Assembly (NCBI GenBank): GCA_017552985.1
Contig: JAFZNO010000019.1
Location: forward strand, 1-43,729
Reading direction: 5' to 3'
Length of the DNA: 43,729 bases
Source of the DNA: Lachnospiraceae bacterium
GTDB taxonomy: Bacteria; Bacillota; Clostridia; Lachnospirales; Lachnospiraceae
The notes under the pieces are model-generated. The model did no database searches. It was not told where the DNA came from and saw nothing but the letters and a program-made list of their open reading frames with translations. The stretch's first letter is position 1, and each line of letters begins with the position of its first letter. The translations under genes were made by a program, and so were the position numbers. Positions 8,088-16,503 of this stretch are shown one piece after another.

Positions 8088-8747
8088 TTATTCTACGTGC
8101 ATTTTTTCTACAAATAATCTCGTGCGTTCTTCCGGATTACTGCCAAACACGGCTGATCCGGCCACGATCACGTTGGCTCCGGCCTCAAGGATCATCTCCA
8201 GATTGCTCTCTTTGACGCCGCCGTCAACTTCAATGTCAAGTTCCAGTCCCAGTTCGTTTACGCGTTTCCTAAGCTCTCGCACCTTGTCCACGCAATCCGG
8301 CATTAGGGACTGTCCGCCAAAGCCTGGCTCCACGGTCATGATCAGCACCATGTCCACCAGATTTAAGAAGGGTTCCAGCGCCGATACCGGCGTCGCGGGC
8401 TTGATGGTGATGCCCACCTTCTTTCCAAGACTGCGGATCTTTTGGATCACCTCAAACGGTTTCTCCGTTGCCTCCAAATGAAAATTGATCAAATCCGCGC
8501 CCATGCTCGCCATGGTTTCAATATAGCGTTCTGGTTCCACGATCATCAGATGCACGTCCAAAAGGAGCGTGGTTTTTCTCTTTAATGCCTCTAATATGGG
8601 CATTCCAAAGGAAATGGAGGGCACGAAAACTCCGTCCATCACGTCCACGTGAAGGTAGGAAGCGCCTCCCCGTTCCACAGCCCGGACCTGTTCTCCCAAA
8701 TTCCAAAAGTCCGCTGCAAGAATCGATGGCGATAAATAGTTTTTCAT
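8088..8747 (-). CDS. rpe: Ribulose-phosphate 3-epimerase
   Basis: 219 residues, normal full length. Interconverts D-ribulose 5-phosphate and D-xylulose 5-phosphate in the pentose phosphate pathway. TIM-barrel landmarks are SPSILAAD at 6-13, the metal ligands His33, Asp35 and His66, the VEPGFGGQ phosphate loop at 139-146 and catalytic Asp175 in EVDGGV. GAGGGG lies nine bases before the ATG. It is the last gene of the minus-strand pentose cluster, 125 bases behind the transketolase C-subunit; no terminator with a T-run is visible in that gap, so co-transcription is plausible. Confidence 0.96.
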   Translation of the reverse strand: MKNYLSPSILAADFWNLGEQVRAVERGGASYLHVDVMDGVFVPSISFGMPILEALKRKTTLLLDVHLMIVEPERYIETMASMGADLINFHLEATEKPFEVIQKIRSLGKKVGITIKPATPVSALEPFLNLVDMVLIMTVEPGFGGQSLMPDCVDKVRELRKRVNELGLELDIEVDGGVKESNLEMILEAGANVIVAGSAVFGSNPEERTRLFVEKMHVE

Positions 8748-8872
8748 CTCATGAAACCCCTCATCACTCAGCCCGGCTGACAGCTGCCGCGCTCCCTCCG
8801 TTTGCCGGACGTCGCGAAGAAGCTGCTGCCGCCAGCGAATGATTCAAGCTGAATGATTTCGTCTTATTCTTA

Positions 8873-9811
8873 CTAGATAAATGCCTTAACGGAAGCGTAA
8901 ACGCCGTCAGCGTCCAAGCCATACTTTGCAACCAGTGCGCCTGCGGATCCGGACTCGCCGAATACGTCCTGCATGCCGATCTTCTTAACGGGAGTCGGCA
9001 GCTTCTCGGAGAGGCAATCACATACTGCGCTGCCAAGACCGCCGATCACGGAATGCTCCTCAACGGTAACAACCTTGCCGGTCTTCTTTGCGCTGTTAAT
9101 GATGATCTCCTCGTCCAGGGGCTTGATGGTGCAGATGTTGATAACTTCAGCGTCAATGCCGTCTGCAGCCAGCTTCTCAGCTGCGCCAAGGGCGGAATCC
9201 ACGCAGATGCCGGTAGCAACGATGGTCACGTCCTTACCGGGACGAACCACGGTACCCTTACCGATCTCAAACTTGTAATCCGGCTTGTCATTGATCACGG
9301 GAACTGCCGCACGGCCAAATCTGATGTAAACGGGACCTTCGTACTCAAGAGCGGCACGAACGGCTGCCTTAGCTTCAATATCATCAGAAGGAACCATAAC
9401 CACCATGCCGGGGATGGTTCTCATCAGGGCGATGTCCTCGTTACACTGATGGGTTGCGCCGTCCTCACCAACGGTGATGCCCGCATGGGTTGCACCGATC
9501 TTTACGTTCAGGTGAGGATAACCTACGGAGTTACGAACCTGCTCGTAAGCACGTCCTGCCGCGAACATTGCGAAGGAGCTTACGAAGGGGATCTTTCCAA
9601 CCAGGGAAAGACCTGCTGCAACGCCGATCATGTTACACTCAGCGATACCGCAATCGATGTGACGGTCGGGATATGCCTTTCTAAAAATACCAGTCTTGGT
9701 AGCCTCTGCAAGGTCTGCATCCAGAACTACCAGATTGGGGAATTCTTCTGCCAAATCTTTCAACGCGTTACCGTAGCTTTCACGGGTAGCGATCTTCTTA
9801 ACGTCTGCCAT
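8873..9811 (-). CDS. Transketolase, C-terminal subunit
   Basis: 312 residues covering the pyrimidine-binding and C-terminal domains of transketolase as a separate polypeptide. The conserved glutamate that activates thiamine diphosphate is Glu58 in GIAECN; THAGITVGEDGATHQ at about 108-121 is the substrate/cofactor loop; VEEHSVIGGLGSAV opens the C-terminal domain. Works with the N-subunit encoded 23 bases upstream to move two-carbon units between pentose and other sugar phosphates. Split transketolases are common in Clostridia and Archaea. 1-deoxy-xylulose-5-phosphate synthase is excluded by the short length and by the context. Confidence 0.93.
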   Translation of the reverse strand: MADVKKIATRESYGNALKDLAEEFPNLVVLDADLAEATKTGIFRKAYPDRHIDCGIAECNMIGVAAGLSLVGKIPFVSSFAMFAAGRAYEQVRNSVGYPHLNVKIGATHAGITVGEDGATHQCNEDIALMRTIPGMVVMVPSDDIEAKAAVRAALEYEGPVYIRFGRAAVPVINDKPDYKFEIGKGTVVRPGKDVTIVATGICVDSALGAAEKLAADGIDAEVINICTIKPLDEEIIINSAKKTGKVVTVEEHSVIGGLGSAVCDCLSEKLPTPVKKIGMQDVFGESGSAGALVAKYGLDADGVYASVKAFI

Positions 9812-9834
9812 TTTTTTCTACCTACCTTTCCACG

Positions 9835-10662
9835 TTAGTTAAGGCTAGCGCCGATCTTCTCCAGATCAGCCATAGCAATTGCATATTCCTCATCGTTAGG
9901 AGCCTTGCCGTGCCAGCCGCACTGATTCTCCATGAAGGAAACGCCCTTACCCTTCGTGCTGTGTACTACGATGGCGGTAGGCATGCCCTTGGTCTCCCTT
10001 GCCTCCTTGAAGGCTGCGCGGAGCTGGTCAAAGTCATGTGCGTCGCAATTGATTACGTGGAAATTGAATGCCTTAAACTTCTCGTCGATGGGATAAGGCG
10101 AGCAAACCTTGTCGATGGGTCCGTCGATCTGCAGGCCGTTGTTGTCAACGATCACCACAAGATTGTCAAGCTTTCTGAAGCCAGCGAACATAGCTGCCTC
10201 CCAAACCTGACCTTCCTGGATCTCGCCGTCGCCAAGCAGGGTGTAAACACGGAAATCCTTGTTTCCAAGCTTTGCGCCCAGTGCCATGCCGACAGCAGCA
10301 GAGATGCCCTGTCCAAGGGAACCGGAGGACATGTCTACGCCGGGAATGTGAATGCAGGGATGGCCCTGCAGGTAAGAACCTAATTTTCTAAGAGTGGTAA
10401 GGTCCTCAACCGGGAAATACCCTCTGTTTGCCAATGCGGAATACAAACCAGGAGCGGTGTGGCCCTTGGAAAGTACGAAACGATCCCTGTCCTCCTTGTC
10501 CGGATTCTTTGGATCAATGTTCATCTCCTCAAAATAAAGATAGGTGAACACGTCTGCTGCGGACAGAGATCCGCCGGGGTGACCCGCCTTTGCGCTGTGA
10601 ACTGCGGTCACGATTCCCTTACGAACTTCGTTCGCTGTCTTTTGCAGCTCTAAATTGTTCAT
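9835..10662 (-). CDS. Transketolase, N-terminal (thiamine diphosphate-binding) subunit
   Basis: 275 residues from the ATG at 10662, chosen because GGAGG lies five bases upstream; a frame from 10674 would place the Shine-Dalgarno inside the gene. Thiamine diphosphate domain: KAGHPGGSLS with His28, KGHTAPG with His68, GSLGQGISAAVGMA, and the metal/diphosphate motif GDGEIQEG at 144-151 followed by NN at 174-175. Forms the active enzyme with the C-subunit downstream. It is separated from araD by a 339-base spacer that holds a 36-bp repeat array. Confidence 0.93.
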   Translation of the reverse strand: MNNLELQKTANEVRKGIVTAVHSAKAGHPGGSLSAADVFTYLYFEEMNIDPKNPDKEDRDRFVLSKGHTAPGLYSALANRGYFPVEDLTTLRKLGSYLQGHPCIHIPGVDMSSGSLGQGISAAVGMALGAKLGNKDFRVYTLLGDGEIQEGQVWEAAMFAGFRKLDNLVVIVDNNGLQIDGPIDKVCSPYPIDEKFKAFNFHVINCDAHDFDQLRAAFKEARETKGMPTAIVVHSTKGKGVSFMENQCGWHGKAPNDEEYAIAMADLEKIGASLN

Positions 10663-10800
10663 GGTTTCCTCCATTCTGCCGCTTTTCGGCGGCCTTTTAT
10701 TATAGTATTGCGTAACCTTTTATCCGTTGGCTACTAATTTACCCAACTTTTAGAATAACGTAAACCGCGCGAAGTGTCTACACCATTCTTGCCCGACGCT
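10663..10800 (-). promoter_or_regulatory. Possible internal promoter and leader hairpin of the transketolase genes
   Basis: Minus strand has TATAAT at 10699-10704, but the base 17 upstream gives only ACGGAT as -35, so this is weak. Just downstream of it GCCGC and GCGGC (about 10679-10694) form a short hairpin before the ribosome-binding site. Nothing else recognisable in this part of the spacer. Confidence 0.35.
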
Positions 10801-10997
10801 TCCGCATCCTTGCGGAATTCCGGCACGTGCTCTTCTGCCGCATCCTGCGGACTTCCGGCACGTACTCTTTTGCCGCATCCTTGCGGACTTCCGGCACGTA
10901 CTCTTTTACCGCATCCTTGCGGACTTCCGGCACGTACTCTTTGGCCACGTCCTTGCGGACTTCCGGCACGTACTCCTTTGCCGCATCCTTGCGGACT
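10801..10997 (-). repeat. 36-bp tandem repeat array, five units, downstream of araD
   Basis: The anchor TCCGGCACGT recurs at 10819, 10854, 10890, 10926 and 10962: spacings 35, 36, 36, 36. The array starts 5 bases past the araD stop. Each unit contains CCGCA-TCCT-TGCGG, a small hairpin, and on the minus strand an open 12-residue frame reading KDAAKEYVPEVR. The outermost unit has lost one base, breaking that frame. No start codon with a ribosome-binding site precedes the frame, so I treat the array as non-coding. Confidence 0.9.
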
Positions 10998-11001
10998 TTA
11001 C

Positions 11002-11703
11002 TTACTGCTCCTTCTGTCCGTAATAAGCGTTGGCGCCGTGCTTGCGGTAATAATGCTTGTCCTGAAGCTCCTGAGGTGCAGGCTGGATGCGGGGATTGAT
11101 TGTCTCCGCGCGATATGCCATCTTGGCAACCTCCTCGAGAACCACTGCATTGTGAACGGCTTCCTTTGCATCCTTACCCCAGGCAAAAGGCCCGTGATTC
11201 TTACACAGAACCGCCGGAACCGCCATGGGATCCTTGCCCATGCGCTGGAACTCGCTTACGATCAAAAGACCCGTGTTGGTCTCGTACGCATCCTCGATCT
11301 CCTCCTTGGTCAGGCACCTAACGCAAGGCACCTCGCCGTAAATGTAATCCGCATGCGTCGTACCGTAGCAGGGAATGCTTCTTCCCGCCTGTGCCCAGCT
11401 CGTGGCATAGGATGAATGGGTGTGTACCACGCCGCCGATCTCCGGAAATGCCTTGTACAGCTCCTGATGGGTGGGTGTGTCGGAAGAAGGATTGTATCTT
11501 CCCTCGATCTTATTGCCGTTCAGGTCCATCACGACCATGTCTTCCGGTTTCAGCTTCTCATAGGGCACGCCGCTGGGCTTGATCACAAAATAGCCCGTTG
11601 CCCTGTCGATGGCGCTCACGTTACCCCACGTAAACGTCACAAGCCCATACTTAGGCAAATCCATGTTCGCCTCATACACCAACTGCTTCAATTCCTCTAA
11701 CAT
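11002..11703 (-). CDS. araD: L-ribulose-5-phosphate 4-epimerase
   Basis: 233 residues from ATG at 11703. Zinc-dependent class II aldolase-fold epimerase making D-xylulose 5-phosphate from L-ribulose 5-phosphate. Visible motifs are GNVS at 27-30, SSDTPTH with Asp75, zinc ligands His94 and His96 in HTHSS and His170 in NHGPFAWG, and the C-terminal AYYGQ. The AraD/UlaF/SgbE paralogues share these; arabinose or ascorbate use is not decided by sequence, but the kinase and transketolase neighbours favour the pentose route. The ribosome-binding site AAAGGAAAAAAG comes directly from the end of the 62-bp repeat array upstream, which is unusual. A frame extension to 11757 runs into that array and is rejected. 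Confidence 0.93.
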
Positions 11704-12374
11704 CTTTTTTCCTTTCTTGTTGCCCTTTTCTCCCGTCTCGGCCATTTGGGGCAACAATTTTTTCTTCAGCTTTTGTTGCCCTTTTCTTTCCTGCCGGCCA
11801 TTCCGGGCAACAATTTCTTCCTTTTCTTCGGCTTTTGTTGCCCTTTTCTTTCCTGCCGGCCATTCCGGGCAACAATTTCTTCCTTTTCTTCAGCTTTTGT
11901 TGCCCTTTTCTTTCCTGCCAGCCATTTGGGGCAACAATTTCGCCTTTTTCTGCAGCTTTTGTTGCCCTTTTCTCCCGTCTCGGCCATTCCGGGCAACAAT
12001 TTCTTCTTTTTCTTCAGCTTTTGTTGCCCTTTTCTTTCCTGCCGGCCATTTGGGGCAACAATTTCTTCCTTTTCTTCCGCTTTTGTTGCCCTTTTCTTTC
12101 CTGCCGGCCATTCTGGGCAACAATTTCTTCCTTTTCTTCGTCTTTTGTTGCCCTTTTCTTTCCTGCCGGCTATTTGGGGCAACAATTTCGCCTTTTTCTG
12201 CAGCTTTTGTTGCCTTTTTCTTTCCTGCCGGCCATTCCGGGCAACAATTTCTTCCTTTTCTTCAGCTTTTGTTGCCCTTTTCCTCCGCCTCGGCCATTTG
12301 AGGCAACGATTTCGCCTTTTTCTTCAGCTTTTGTTGTCCTTTTCCTCCGTCTCGGCCATTCCGGACGGCGATTT
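11704..12374 (-). repeat. 62-bp hairpin-bearing tandem repeat array, about 11 units
   Basis: The anchor GCAACAATTT recurs at 11751, 11807, 11869, 11931, 11993, 12055, 12117, 12179, 12241 and (as GCAACGATTT) 12303, then a decayed unit. Spacing is 62 bases throughout except 56 for the unit nearest araD, and a partial unit abuts the araD start. Each junction has arms TTGTTGCCC and GGGCAACAA about 23 bases apart. Two forms alternate inside units (loop CTTTCCTGCCGGCC or CTCCCGTCTCGGCC; linker TTCTTCCTTTTCTTC or TCGCCTTTTTCTGC). Because 62 is not a multiple of 3 and all frames stay open, long frames here are artefacts; the array is non-coding and, on the operon strand, strongly purine-rich. Confidence 0.95.
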
Positions 12375-12578
12375 CTTTCATTTTCCCGGTTTTCTCCGTT
12401 TTTCCGAGCGGAAATTCGTTTTCCCAACTAACAACCATATTCCGAGAAAACACATGCTTCTAAGAATTCATTTGCTTCACGAAAAATGCTTGTCTCTGAA
12501 AAAACGCTTGCTTCACGGAGAACGCACTCCTGAAAAGCACGTTCTTCCGGGAAGCATCATTTTCAGGTTTCAGCCATT
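12375..12578 (-). other. Spacer between FGGY kinase stop and the 62-bp array
   Basis: 204 bases with no convincing frame. It contains a decayed remnant of the array and loosely repeated GCTTCACG/TGCTT(G/C) words (about 12470-12525). No terminator with a T-run was seen on the minus strand, which fits read-through from the kinase into araD. Confidence 0.5.
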
Positions 12579-14177
12579 TTACTTGAATCCTTCCACTGCA
12601 GCCTTCTGCGCGGGGATGGTGTTTACGTACTTCTCGAGGAAGGCGTCGAATCCGGCCACGTCCTCCGCATCGGGAGCGATCGTCGTTCCGGTCTGGCCTG
12701 CGAAGATCTTCTTCTCGAGGTAATCAGCAAGGCCTTCGCCCTCTTCCTTCTCCATCATGTAGCATGCAAGGATCGCCATGCCCCAAGGACCGCCCTCGCT
12801 CGCCGTATCCATAACGGTAACGGGCGCGTTCAATGCTGCTGCCAGCATCTTCTGTCCAACCACGGGAGTCTTGAAGAGTCCGCCGTGACCCATCAAGCTG
12901 TCCACGGTGATCTGCTCCTGCTTCAGCAGAATGTCATTACCAACCTTCAATGCCGCAAGTGCGCTGTACAGATGGCTTCTCATGAAGTTTGCCAGAGAGA
13001 ACTTTGCGTCGGGGGTGCGAAGGAACATGGGACGTCCGCCGTCATTCAGTCCCGTCACGGGTTCACCCGAGAAGTAGTTGTATGCCATCAGGCCGCCGCA
13101 ATCCTTGTCAGCCTCCAGTGCCTTGCGATACAGGGTTCCGTAGAGGTCATTCATATCGATCTTCATGCCGAACTGTTCGGAGAACTCCTTGAAGAGGTTC
13201 ACCCATGCGTTCAGGTCGGAAGTACAGTTATTGCAGTGAACCATTGCCACGGGATAACCGTCGGGCGTGGTCACCATGTCGATCTCCTCATAATACTTGG
13301 AAAGTGCCTTCTCCAATACCACCATGGAAAAGATGGAGGTACCTGCGGATACGTTACCGGTGCGAACCTTAACGGCGTTGGTGGCAACCATGCCAGTGCC
13401 GGCGTCGCCCTCGGGAGGACACATCGGGCAACCGGGCTCCAACGCTCCGGTGGGATCCAGGAACTTAGCGCCTTCTGCGGTCAGCGTTCCTGCATTCTCG
13501 CCTGCAAGAAGAACCTTGGGCAGGATCTCGCGGATCTTCCACTGATAACCCCAATCCTTTACAAGCGCGTCAAACTGATCCAGCATTCTCTGGTCGTAAT
13601 CCATGATCTCGGAATCGATGGGGAACATGCCGGATGCCTCACCGATGCCCATCACCTTCTGGCCCGTGAGCTTCCAGTGAATAAAGCCTGCCAGCGTCGT
13701 AAAGAAAGCGATGTCCTTTACGTGCTTTTCCTGGTTTAAGATTGCCTGATAGAGGTGGGCAATGCTCCATCTCTGCGGCACGTTGAATGCAAACAGGGGG
13801 GAGAGCTCCTTTACTGCCTGTCCCGTCATGGTATTTCTCCAGGTACGGAAGGAAACCAGAAGATTTCCGTCCTTGTCAAAAGGCATGTAACCGTGCATCA
13901 TGCCGGAGAAGCCAATGGCTCCCAGCTTCGTCAGGGCTACGCCGTACTTATCCTTTACGTCCTTTACAAGGGATGCATAGCAATCCTGAAGACCCGTCGT
14001 TATGTCATCCATGCTATAGGTCCAAATCTCGTCCTCGAAACGGTTTTCCCAATCATGAACGCCCATGGCGATGGGCTGATGGGTTTCATCAACGAGCACT
14101 GCCTTGATTCTGGTAGAACCAAATTCGATCCCGAGGATCGCTTTTCCTGAAAGAATCGCATTCTTTGCAGTTTCCAT
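12579..14177 (-). CDS. FGGY-family carbohydrate kinase, probable ribulokinase/xylulokinase type
   Basis: 532 residues from ATG at 14177, which has GAGG nine bases upstream; the open frame extends to 14336 but only through low-complexity leader. The FGGY/actin-like ATPase fold shows the phosphate-1 motif [10 protein letters not shown] at 16-25, GFSGMMHG, the EGDAGTGM region and the [10 protein letters not shown] adenosine-binding end. Lying directly upstream of araD and transketolase, the expected reaction is ATP-dependent phosphorylation of L-ribulose (giving the AraD substrate) or D-xylulose. The sequence resembles the non-classical ribulokinase group of Clostridia/Bacteroides (AraK-like) as I recall it. 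No araA isomerase is in the window. First gene of the cluster, under a strong promoter. Confidence 0.82.
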
Positions 14178-14340
14178 ACCTGTCTTCCTCTCATTTCTGC
14201 CTCTCGGCCATTTTCTAAGTTTCTTTTTGCAGTTCTTTTTTGTAGTTCTTTTTGCAGTTCTGTTTGCAGTTCCTCTTTCAATTTTTCTCAGTTTCTTTTT
14301 CAGCTTCCGCAGATTGTTCCCGTCAGCTAAAAACACCTAT
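14178..14340 (-). other. Purine-rich, low-complexity leader of the pentose operon
   Basis: About 160 bases between the predicted start site and the kinase ATG. On the minus strand it is made of irregular repeats of GAACTGCAAAAA (about 14219-14275), and near the start codon it carries AAATGGCCGAGA, the same word found in the type-2 units of the 62-bp array. No ORF with a ribosome-binding site. Confidence 0.7.
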
Positions 14341-14346
14341 GTTTCC

Positions 14347-14375
14347 AGTATAAACGAGGCGTTTTCAAGTGTCAA
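14347..14375 (-). promoter_or_regulatory. Strong sigma-A promoter of the pentose operon
   Basis: Minus strand: -35 TTGACA at 14370-14375, 17-base spacer, -10 TATACT at 14347-14352. Start site expected near 14340. Confidence 0.88.
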
Positions 14376-14386
14376 TATTTTCGCTC

Positions 14387-14400
14387 GTAAAACCTTTTAC
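14387..14400. promoter_or_regulatory. Palindromic candidate operator upstream of the pentose promoter
   Basis: GTAAAA-N2-TTTTAC, perfect 6-base arms, centred about 20 bases upstream of the -35. Position suits an activator or an upstream repressor half. Not a catabolite-response element. Confidence 0.4.
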
Positions 14401-14604
14401 TAATTTTCCAAATCCAACGCAGCGTCGGGCAAGGCACCACGTGCTGACGGTGCACGTTGAAGCCTTATGATACGGCACAAGGATATGGCACAAGGATACG
14501 GCACAAGGATACGAAACAGAGGCACGTCTCCTCGCTGACGCAGACACGTTGAAGCACCTCGCCGCATAGAATGGTTCTAAGCTTTCGTTCACGAAAGGCG
14601 TCCC
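14401..14604. other. Divergent spacer with a 13-bp tandem repeat
   Basis: Between the pentose promoter and the DUF885 gene. Holds four 13-bp units of GATACGGCACAAG (14469-14520, last one degenerate), flanked by two imperfect copies of GCTGACG-N5-6-ACGTTGAAGC. The DUF885 gene promoter was not identified with confidence. Confidence 0.6.
14469..14520. repeat. 13-bp tandem repeat, four units
   Basis: Units start at 14469, 14482, 14495 and 14508; units 1 and 3 identical, unit 2 has one change, unit 4 is degenerate. Confidence 0.8.
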
Positions 14605-16503
14605 ATGAAAAACCTCTCCCCCAAAAACCGGACCCGGCTTTCCCTCCCGCAGCTGTTGCTCTCCTGCGTGCTCCTGCTGGCCGTCACCTTCGTTCTCTGC
14701 CTGACCTTTGCCCGCCACGCAGAGGAAGATTCCTTTTCCCGCCATGCGGAGGGAGATTCCTTTTCCCACCGCACGGGGGAAGATCCCTTTGCCGCGTTCT
14801 GCGCTGAGCTGTACCGGCAGGAAATGACGGCGAACACCCTGAATCTCCATTACGGCCTTGCGCATCCGGAGCTCTTCGGCATCACGGAATATCCGGTGAC
14901 CCTGCCAATCTATGAGGCTGGCAGTGCGGAAAAAGCGTCGGCGCGGCTCTCCAAAGTGCTGGAGGATTTCCATGCCCTTCCCCGCGAAGCCTTATCACCC
15001 GAAGATCAATACGCCAGCAACTGTCTTGAGCGGATGCTGAGGCTCTCGAAGGAATTGGCAGCCTATCCCCACTATGCCAATCCCCTCTCCCCTACCCAGG
15101 GCGTACAGGGCGAACTCCCCATTCTCCTTAGCGAATACACTTTCCGGAGCAAAAAGGACGTGGAGGAATACTTAATGCTTCTTGGCCAGGTCGATGACTA
15201 TTTTTCCTCTCTGCTCATTTACGAGACGGAAAAGGTCGCGGCGGGTCTTTCCCCTTCCGCCGAGAGTCTGTCCCAGTCCGCAGCGCAATGTGACGCTATT
15301 GTCACTTTTGAGGAATTGTCCCAGGGAACCCACTTCCTGCAAACGAGCTTTGCAGAGCGCCTTGAAGACCTTCATCGCACCGGAGTCCTGAGCAGCCCGG
15401 AAAAAGAAGACTACCTTGTCAGAAACAACGCCTTGCTGACAGACACCTTTCTTCCAGCCTGCCAAAAATTAAAGGACGGCCTCTTAGAACTTGCCGCCAT
15501 GGCCCCCGCCGGTCCACGTCCGCTGGCCTCCTACCCCCGGGGCAAGGATTATTATCGTCTGTTGCTCGCCAGCGTCACGGGTTCCGGAAAAACGCCGGAG
15601 GAGGTGCGTTCGCTGTTCATGCAGACCATGAAGCAGGAACTCTCCGCCATCCGGCAGTTGATGGAAAAGTATCCCGGCTGCCTATCCGCCCTAAAAAGTC
15701 ATTCCTACGAGGATCTTGGAATTTATGACGCAAGCGTCATTCTTTCCGACCTGCGCCTCCAAATGCAAGGAATCTACCCAGAGCTTTCGGCAGAGTGCCA
15801 ATGCGTTGTAAAGTCCATTTCCCCCAATCTCCAGGCATATAGCGCTCCCGCCTTCTACCTGACGGCCCCCGTCGACGACGCTTCCCACAACGTTATCTAC
15901 GTGAATCCCGCCGCCCAAGCCGGCAGTCTCGAGCTCTACGTAACCCTGGCTCACGAAGGTTATCCCGGCCACCTTTATCAAAACGCCTACTGCTCGTCTT
16001 GCATTTTATCCTTAGAAAACAATCTTCTCCGTCAACTCCTTGGGTGCGGCGGCTATCTGGAAGGTTGGGCGTTCTACGTCGAGCAAAACGCGTATGACTA
16101 TGCCTCAAAACGCCTGATCAATAGTAACCGCCCGGCGGATGCGGTCTGCGTCCAAATCGCCAAACATGAGAGAAGCCTGCGCCTTTGTCTGTGCGCCCTT
16201 GCCGACCTTATGATCCATTATGACGGCGCCACGCCCGGGGACTTGACGGACCTTTGTTCCTCCCTAGGCATTCAGGGGTTTGAGAGCGCCGATGCCCTCT
16301 GCCAATACGTTTGCGATTCCCCCTGCAACTATCCCAAATACTATTTAGGTTATCTGGAAATCCTGGAATTGCGCAAGTCGGCGCAAAGACTCTGGGGAAC
16401 CTCTTTTGACGACCTTAGTTTCCACGAGTTCTGTCTCTCCCACGGGCCGGCAGATTTTGAAAACCTAAGGAAATCGTTGGAAACAACAAGAAATGTCAAA
16501 TGA
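14605..16503 (+). CDS. DUF885 family membrane-anchored metallopeptidase-like protein
   Basis: 632 residues. N-terminal membrane anchor at about 15-36, then a linker made of three 9-residue repeats (residues 37-63), then the DUF885 domain. HEGYPGH near residue 450 is the zinc-binding HExxH-like signature of this gluzincin-related family, with a downstream YLEGWAFYVEQ (about 485-495) that supplies the third ligand. Expected to be an extracytoplasmic peptidase or aminopeptidase-like enzyme; substrate unknown. The ribosome-binding site is weak (AAGG eight bases upstream). It is divergent from the pentose operon and 183 bases upstream of an AraC-type regulator. Confidence 0.85.
   Translation: MKNLSPKNRTRLSLPQLLLSCVLLLAVTFVLCLTFARHAEEDSFSRHAEGDSFSHRTGEDPFAAFCAELYRQEMTANTLNLHYGLAHPELFGITEYPVTLPIYEAGSAEKASARLSKVLEDFHALPREALSPEDQYASNCLERMLRLSKELAAYPHYANPLSPTQGVQGELPILLSEYTFRSKKDVEEYLMLLGQVDDYFSSLLIYETEKVAAGLSPSAESLSQSAAQCDAIVTFEELSQGTHFLQTSFAERLEDLHRTGVLSSPEKEDYLVRNNALLTDTFLPACQKLKDGLLELAAMAPAGPRPLASYPRGKDYYRLLLASVTGSGKTPEEVRSLFMQTMKQELSAIRQLMEKYPGCLSALKSHSYEDLGIYDASVILSDLRLQMQGIYPELSAECQCVVKSISPNLQAYSAPAFYLTAPVDDASHNVIYVNPAAQAGSLELYVTLAHEGYPGHLYQNAYCSSCILSLENNLLRQLLGCGGYLEGWAFYVEQNAYDYASKRLINSNRPADAVCVQIAKHERSLRLCLCALADLMIHYDGATPGDLTDLCSSLGIQGFESADALCQYVCDSPCNYPKYYLGYLEILELRKSAQRLWGTSFDDLSFHEFCLSHGPADFENLRKSLETTRNVK
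14713..14793 (+). repeat. In-frame 27-bp repeat (three units) inside the DUF885 gene
   Basis: Units at 14713-14739, 14740-14766 and 14767-14793 encode RHAEEDSFS, RHAEGDSFS and the diverged HRTGEDPFA, in the linker just after the membrane helix. Confidence 0.85.

Follow-up and report, generated by a model that had tools for sequence, protein, structure and literature searches.

A tandem hairpin array between a kinase gene and araD

What does a long ladder of hairpins do between two genes of what looks like a single operon, and how did it come to be there? The ladder lies in a 43,729-base window that makes up the whole of contig C47 of the genome analysed (G000; 3.86 Mb in 137 contigs), directly ahead of a gene whose closest named relatives are Lachnospiraceae and Acetatifactor records, MAGs nearly throughout and many of them from gut or rumen. 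Our analysis indicates that the array is probably a recent, species-level gain of a non-coding hairpin repeat, dispersed and amplified in tandem within this genome of the Acetatifactor group and, on other stems, within the nearest sister species.

The kinase and araD genes are codirectional and likely form a polycistronic unit, with the minus strand as the operon mRNA. We take araD to be the name of the 11002..11703 gene, for which the Pfam assignment is Aldolase_II. In mRNA order, the features of the locus are as follows:

14347..14375, minus strand: promoter-like TTGACA-17-TATACT upstream of the kinase gene (consensus scan only)
12579..14240, minus strand: FGGY-family carbohydrate kinase gene, start codon uncertain, open reading frame extending to 14336
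12372..12578, minus strand: stretch between the kinase stop and the array, the array-free portion of the spacer (from the sequence)
11717..12371, minus strand: 62-bp tandem hairpin array with 11 inverted 9-nt arm pairs (TTGTTGCCC / GGGCAACAA), from TRF, unit listing and folds
12290..12371, minus strand: degenerate distal units with arms TCGCCGTCC / GGACAACAA / TCGTTGCCT, the edge of the array (unit listing)
11726..11781, minus strand: unit shortened to 56 bp by the loss of 6 nt from its 21-nt loop (unit listing)
11704..11716, minus strand: purine-rich linker with the araD Shine-Dalgarno (SD) sequence GAAAGGA, directly after the last arm (from the sequence)
11703-11701, minus strand: araD ATG (from the sequence)
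11002..11703, minus strand: araD-type class II aldolase/epimerase gene (Aldolase_II, E 6e-55)
10802..10998, minus strand: 36-bp array of 5.5 copies with the GGA-loop hairpin CCGCAAGGATGCGG, immediately past the stop of araD
9835-10674, minus strand: transketolase N half, downstream of araD
8873-9811, minus strand: transketolase C half, downstream of araD
8088-8747, minus strand: ribulose-phosphate 3-epimerase gene, downstream of araD (these last three genes span 8088..10674)

The original prediction described about 11 units of 62 bp with one of 56 bp. This description is confirmed by TRF (11760-12364, period 62, 9.8 copies, 86% matches, score 886) and by a unit-by-unit listing with nine spacings of 62 bp and one of 56 bp, although the copy number rests on one fragmented assembly of one genome of the species and may be off. 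Along the mRNA, GGGCAACAA-type arms alternate with TTGTTGCCC-type arms, with 11 arms of each type, 9 of them canonical, and the purine-rich loops alternate between a 21-nt form (AAGCTGAAGAAAAGGAAGAAA-like) and a 23-nt form (GGAATGGCCGGCAGGAAAGAAAA-like). The arms had been called nearly invariant and the loops variable, which holds true across the eight intact 62-nt units, where variation affects a single arm column out of 18 and 15 loop columns out of 44 (Fisher p = 0.025). The array had also been thought to fill the spacer. It does not: the spacer measures 875 nt, and its first 207 nt on the mRNA separate the kinase stop from the array.

Coding potential, folding and the araD Shine-Dalgarno sequence

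Protein coding by the array can be rejected, because 62 is not a multiple of three and stops occur in all three mRNA-strand frames; the array is thus non-coding, as anticipated. The accompanying claim that every frame is open applies nearly only to the antisense strand (0, 1 and 0 stops) and fails on the mRNA strand (2, 2 and 3 stops). Similarly, the changed distal arms were said to retain pairing through G-U, which they do on the plus-strand (antisense) RNA, whereas in the mRNA the same positions are A-C mismatches.

Compared with 20 shuffles per strand, both strands are much more stably folded, with z = -7.2 for the minus strand and z = -15.4 for the plus strand. Because the arms alternate, every arm is able to pair with either neighbour, and the predicted minus-strand fold mixes both pairing registers. 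The antisense strand of the array is pyrimidine-rich. It carries three terminator-like sites within the array and one just beyond, compared to none on the sense strand there, in a consensus scan whose total for the region was 12 sites, against 6.4 in shuffled sequence.

At its downstream end the array runs into GAAAGGAAAAAAG-ATG directly after the final arm, and the SD adjoins the stem and lies outside the stem itself. The predicted position of the array's end, at the ribosome-binding site of araD, is therefore borne out, and the SD may derive from either the repeat unit or the ancestral spacer. The araD frame is open back to a stop at 11892 and has an in-frame ATG at 11745; the units carry stops on this strand, and we saw no separate unit ORF ending at the araD start in the kinase-araD array.

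Two further features lie downstream of araD. The araD-transketolase spacer contains a promoter-like TAGACA-17-TATTCT on the minus strand (10752-10780, 9 of 12 consensus positions) and a TAGACA-like element is visible by eye in several relatives; the transketolase genes may thus be transcribed from a promoter of their own. The hairpin of the 36-bp array, CCGCAAGGATGCGG, occurs once at the same place after araD in the closest relative (G011, L022) and in 5.5 copies here, and the array thus looks like a product of tandem growth in situ. An Rfam search of positions 10600-15000 at E up to 1 returned only RsmY (E 0.65, 10787-10858), which falls off the 62-bp array and on the 36-bp array beside it. 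A CsrA/RsmY-like sponge, as the GGA loops and this weak match might suggest, is unlikely because none of four genomes examined (0/4) has a CsrA match.

The array is absent from the same spacer in the relatives measured

We found araD in 47 of the 61 genus genomes, that of the window included (E up to 1e-60), and the kinase gene lies upstream of araD in 28 of 29 relatives' loci. Spacers in these relatives range from 3 to 302 nt, as opposed to 875 nt here, and according to TRF the 62-bp array is absent from the kinase-araD spacer of all 28; the sole TRF repeat among them has an 18-bp period and 2.1 copies (L031). The closest relative, G011, which shares 93% DNA identity over araD and 94% over the kinase gene, has a spacer of 24 nt. 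A set of 80 named loci, which overlaps the 29 relatives, gave 66 measurable spacers, and when periods of 20 bp or more are counted a spacer array is present only in L120 (39 bp). A short repeat in L039 lies outside the kinase-araD spacer. These short, array-free spacers suggest that the array probably post-dates the divergence from G011.

The close relatives L090, L091 and L094 have spacers of 12-15 nt in which the SD nearly touches the kinase stop, a spacing that can be compatible with translational coupling. Coupling efficiency varies by species, however, and a review (PMC12548453) gives a drop of about 10-fold at +12 nt for B. subtilis; coupling at the 12-24-nt spacing of the relatives may therefore already be weak, a point against the explanation we favour. 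Another relative, G018 (L092), has an array built from GGTAGCTTT arms (63 bp, 9.7 copies) upstream of this kinase gene, at the 3' side of which the G000 array lies.

Related arrays in other operon spacers

DNA and pattern searches revealed more 62-63-bp arrays elsewhere in G000, some of them at contig ends. We built a unit model (R1) from 23 units of G000 only (8 pairs) and scored 80 or 32 candidates per genome. Among the candidates scored, R1 matches numbered 34 at 12 places in G000, 10 in G018, 8 in G046 and 4 in G011, and each of the other 57 genus genomes had at most one weak match (E up to 0.01). The degenerate distal stretch of the araD array (12290-12349) itself matches more weakly (E 2.8e-8). 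Across 149 other genomes drawn from the family, five, from other genera, had a single match among the candidates scored (E up to 1e-4); none of the five is in a 62-bp array, and that in L469 is in a 52-bp array. Restriction of the unit to four species may partly reflect the G000-built model and the candidates scored.

Flanking genes were called crudely as longest ORFs, and 8 of the 29 flanking proteins scanned have no Pfam match. The unit is found in the pta-ackA spacer (G000:C30), upstream of a PALP enzyme gene (C78), between KDPG aldolase and PfkB kinase genes (G018:C8), between UDPGP and esterase genes (G018:C18), between O-methyltransferase and U32 peptidase genes (G046:C9), and either just upstream (G018:C37) or about 0.8 kb upstream (G011:C12) of a GNAT acetyltransferase gene. 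Domains are from Pfam and the gene names, pta-ackA included, are our assumption: we take the aldolase-kinase pair to be kdgA-kdgK, the PALP enzyme gene to be trpB and the gene preceding it to be trpF.

Among seven measured genomes the pta-ackA unit is found only in G000 (spacer 345 nt), the spacers elsewhere being 101 nt in G018, 105 nt in G011, 272 nt in G046, 77 nt in G004, 71 nt in G021 and 15 nt in G048 (G051 gave no match). Among six measured genomes the kdgA-kdgK unit is found only in G018 (spacer 291 nt), compared to 15 nt in G000, 54 nt in G011, 24 nt in G048 and 55 nt in G021 (G004 gave no match and the G051 locus is cut by the contig). The kdgA-kdgK spacer of G046 (L462) is 582 nt long and holds other long inverted repeats, so the spacers of this clade take different insertions. 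Absence from relatives at araD and the presence of similar arrays between other genes thus point to a fast-changing operon repeat family rather than a switch for one gene.

We defined stem-bearing arrays as TRF arrays of 40-80 bp whose consensus stem beats shuffles at p up to 0.02. There are five in 748 kb of G000, window included (L282 would be a sixth, at p 0.08), three in 527 kb of G018 (four with L306, whose stem is hidden in the consensus), two in 160 kb of G011 (one of which has a loop of 38 nt), none in 40 kb of G046 and none in 400 kb of the more distant G006; these are counts, not densities, as several G000 and G018 contigs were chosen for holding matches. Most of the 23 G000 arrays of 40-80 bp are stemless. 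Because non-hairpin arrays are also common in G000, part of the pattern reflects general tandem-repeat richness. In viral contigs, a loose unit pattern occurs in at least 120 stretches; the 80 listed each contain one match, which is probably due to chance. The REP-head pattern described below has no match in viral contigs.

The original prediction cast the array as a slippage-prone tuner. In an adaptive version of this idea, slippage-driven copy number would set araD translation or mRNA stability and provide phase-variation-like control of pentose use. The array does terminate at the araD SD, arrays also extend to the next gene's SD in G018:C63 and G046:C8, and arms are less variable than loops. 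Passages of a study of M. tuberculosis further report that the length of the rnc-fpg1 array correlates with fpg1 mRNA (PMC2734929), a precedent that lends the idea some plausibility. However, the same class of repeat is present in unrelated operons, the orthologous spacer is without this repeat in every measured relative, and the consensus scan reported no promoter-like site inside the kinase-araD array. With the unit missing at this spot in close relatives and dispersed elsewhere in the genome, a tuner specific to araD is not supported, and we consider an adaptive tuner unlikely.

Stems differ between arrays and pairing is kept

Most arrays share a unit geometry of a 9-nt arm, a 21-nt loop, a second 9-nt arm and a 23-24-nt linker, adding up to 62-63 bp. 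Exceptions in pitch are G018:C18b (61 bp) and G046:C9 (72 bp), and G018:C63 yielded no 9-bp stem at loop 21. The arms differ by array (GGGCAACAA, AAGGGACAA, ACGGCGAAA, AAGCATCGA, AGGCAATAA, AAGCAACAT, AAGCTACCC and GGTAGCTTT) and keep their pairing. In an alignment of 18 hairpins from 16 arrays, all nine of the nine pairs show changes on both sides and 92.6% of cells are paired, a value that is an upper view because the rows were picked partly for pairing; two GGTAGCTTT arrays (L208 and L298) that the aligner had shifted were dropped from the initial 20 rows. None of 500 shuffles reached any of five measures of covariation, and slid partners pair in 27-54% of cells (maximum 53.7%). The A-rich loop start is conserved among units. 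In the DNA sampled, the geometry leaves only a modest spike: long-loop inverted repeats with a 21-nt loop number 12 in G000 and 16 in G018, versus 1 and 2 in shuffled sequence, and G018 has 21 at loop 19.

Selection on the mRNA strand is not supported by wobble bias, as the sense strand holds 17 G-U and 13 A-C wobbles in all candidate units (some off-register candidates included). The stems may be kept at the DNA level or by mutation bias rather than by RNA-level selection.

Where the genes on either side run the same way, 11 of 12 loci have the unit in gene direction (C47, C30, C78, C66, G011:C12, G018:C18:92080, C37, C8 and C63 of G018, G046:C8 and G046:C9), the lone antisense locus being the weak G018:C18:43320 (E 7.8e-4). 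This count covers 12 of the 22 R1 loci in four species; the ten left out lie at contig ends (C3, C81, C108, C93, C26 and G011:C48), have convergent or unclear neighbours (C114, C76 and C62) or are weak (G046:C8:45348). The original prediction had set a generic repeat scattered at random against itself. The repeat is dispersed and intergenic, but its distribution appears non-random: at loci with readable flanks it occupies gene-to-gene spacers, mostly in gene direction.

The constant geometry could also mean that the arrays are a class of ladders with a selected architecture (9-bp stem, 21-nt loop, 62-63-bp pitch), in which each operon array has its own stems, acts as a sense-strand insulator that uncouples neighbouring genes, and is repeatedly gained and lost among sister species. 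Stems of their own would lead the hairpins to pair within one mRNA and not with other transcripts. We regard such selected insulators as improbable.

It is also doubtful that the 9-bp stem and 21-nt loop constitute a functional RNA, recognised by a protein or RNase that stabilises or cuts operon transcripts. In favour of such recognition are a geometry that stays fixed as the stems change, the strong covariation, the gene-direction orientation and the conserved loop start; the sense strand is nevertheless without G-U bias, and presence and absence of the unit shift quickly between sister species. A known Rfam RNA can be rejected, given that nothing matches on the array at E up to 1 and nothing matches at gathering score in five other sources.

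Other hairpin repeats in these genomes

Several further repeat families are present in G000 and its relatives. A REP-like hairpin, GGGGACGGGG...CCCCGTCCCC, is found in G000 at C76, C114, C108, C26, C62, C90 and C44 (L273 and L283), either solo or heading composites with 62-bp units and a GAATTTGACAAATTC tail. The REP-like heads, which are distinct from the units, contain GACGGGG/CCCCGTC. An inverted-arm repeat with TTTTGTGCCC arms (L191 102-250, L285 10833-10981 and L084/C90) adjoins a REP-like head at C90. Another REP-like family consists of GGGGACGTGTC hairpins with GTGACCC-like feet (L193 14950, L195 10176, L280 6680 and L199 11335), and G018 has a MITE-like family of ~54-bp palindromes with 17-21-bp stems (AGGTTTGGATTGTCTTT-like; L206, L208, L294, L296, L304 and L310). 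Arrays of a 53-bp CCCGTAG/CTACGGG hairpin form a second pitch class (G000:C60, L194 1-234; L288 1932-2207; G011:C1, L212 74-573), and the C60 array is upstream of a MutS-domain gene. A CRISPR-like array in G046:C1 (L221 8021-11376) has a 66-69-bp period and the repeat GTCTCCCTCCGCATGGGGGGAGTGGATTGAAAT. Finally, a hairpin ACCGAAGGAGGGG...CCTTCGGT lies near two contig ends (43657-43696 in the window and L197 43-82), and this repeat possibly broke the assembly.

Composites of this kind raise a further explanation: a mobile element with a REP head would carry the 62-bp units as inner modules of variable copy number, and the array at araD would be a copy whose head has been lost. C76, C114, C108 and C26 share a REP-like head (GGGGACGGGGTTAGTGG...) followed by 1-3 GCAACAA units; ACGGCGA-type units come next at C76, C114 and C108, and a tail is common to C76 and C114. 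We consider this origin very unlikely for the araD array, as no such head or tail is present at araD, at pta-ackA or upstream of trpB, G000 is without a Y1_Tnp transposase match, and target duplication was not seen. Most improbable of all is an artefact of short-read assembly in copy number or insertion, which the 137 contigs and the five other arrays that hit contig ends (C93, C81, C3, C108 and C26) might suggest, because the units are individually distinct and in an order not expected from a collapsed array, and the sequence on either side comes from a single syntenic gene pair.

Probable gain, spread and consequences of the repeat

If the array is a recent gain of a dispersed hairpin repeat, as we favour, units would have spread at a low level in the clade as a non-autonomous repeat; we found neither a transposase nor a target duplication for the unit. 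Slippage or unequal exchange could then have expanded the units locally within the spacer, and expansion combined with template switching between the inverted arms would keep the arms matched. Units would be tolerated in spacers where transcription is not stopped. The sense orientation would presumably be favoured because sense hairpins are followed by A-rich sequence and antisense hairpins by U-rich sequence, which could terminate operon transcription; terminator-like sites on the antisense strand only offer a possible reason for the other orientation to be harmful in an operon. At araD, the tight stop-to-start spacing of relatives would have been lost and araD would be translated from its own SD. 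The hairpin ladder in the mRNA would keep this SD accessible and may affect how stable the transcript is or how it is processed, and we expect that a long untranslated ladder of this type would alter the araD level.

Operon spacers are usually short. In this small group of gut Lachnospiraceae, hairpin arrays of roughly 0.1-0.7 kb have been gained and have expanded between core metabolic genes (kinase-araD, pta-ackA and kdgA-kdgK), for the most part in a single orientation and with stems that differ yet pair. Such arrays are suited to testing the effects of hairpin ladders on translational coupling and mRNA fate, and to testing whether arm pairing is kept by selection or by template-switch mutation. 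They may also break short-read assemblies, as several coincide with contig ends.

Comparison with known repeat systems

Searches of a collection of open papers turned up no account of arrays like these from Lachnospiraceae or Acetatifactor, a result that applies to that collection. To our knowledge, ERIC and Correia elements do not form 62-bp tandem arrays, and the likeness drawn here is by description only. Passages of PMC3049150 present them as hairpin insertions in transcribed spacers that may alter mRNA cleavage, an effect that for ERIC is orientation-dependent.

The array works like MIRU, BOX and BIME repeats, without the demonstrated defining features of each. It shares with MIRUs and the rnc-fpg1 array a build of 40-100-bp tandem units in operon spacers and a lineage-specific distribution. 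As described in passages of PMC2734929, the rnc-fpg1 array is absent from the other mycobacteria compared, in which the spacer is 6-54 bp, and extends to the start codon of the following gene. MIRUs are portrayed in parts of PMC12548453 as carrying an ORF coupled to the next gene, whereas the present array, compared by description, has mRNA-strand stops in all frames and an inverted-arm hairpin, and comes from another phylum.

BOX elements of Streptococcus, in the account given in sections of PMC3049150, consist of modules in variable number, form stem-loops and can be transcribed with operons, and are bounded by boxA and boxC modules that bear terminal inverted repeats, with duplication of the target. 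End modules of the BOX type were not seen at the araD array, and no duplication was apparent by eye in comparison with relatives' spacers. The REP-headed composite copies in G000 are, by that account, BOX-like in build.

REP and BIME elements carry a GTAG/CGTC tag at the foot of a 20-40 bp element, and by eye the units have no such foot. A RAYT-driven REP is not supported, as Y1_Tnp (PF01797) has no match in G000, which is 98.5% complete, so that a missed gene is possible; a PF01797 match is present in 20 of the 61 genus genomes. According to Table 1 of PMC3733652, REP loops are 4-5 nt for CGTC and 2-20 nt for GTAG types, in contrast to loops of 21-23 nt here, with arms that differ among arrays. 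What the array shares with REP and BIME sequences, as these are characterised in passages of PMC2817692 and PMC3733652, is a composition of short palindromes in alternating orientation, regular spacing and an extragenic location.
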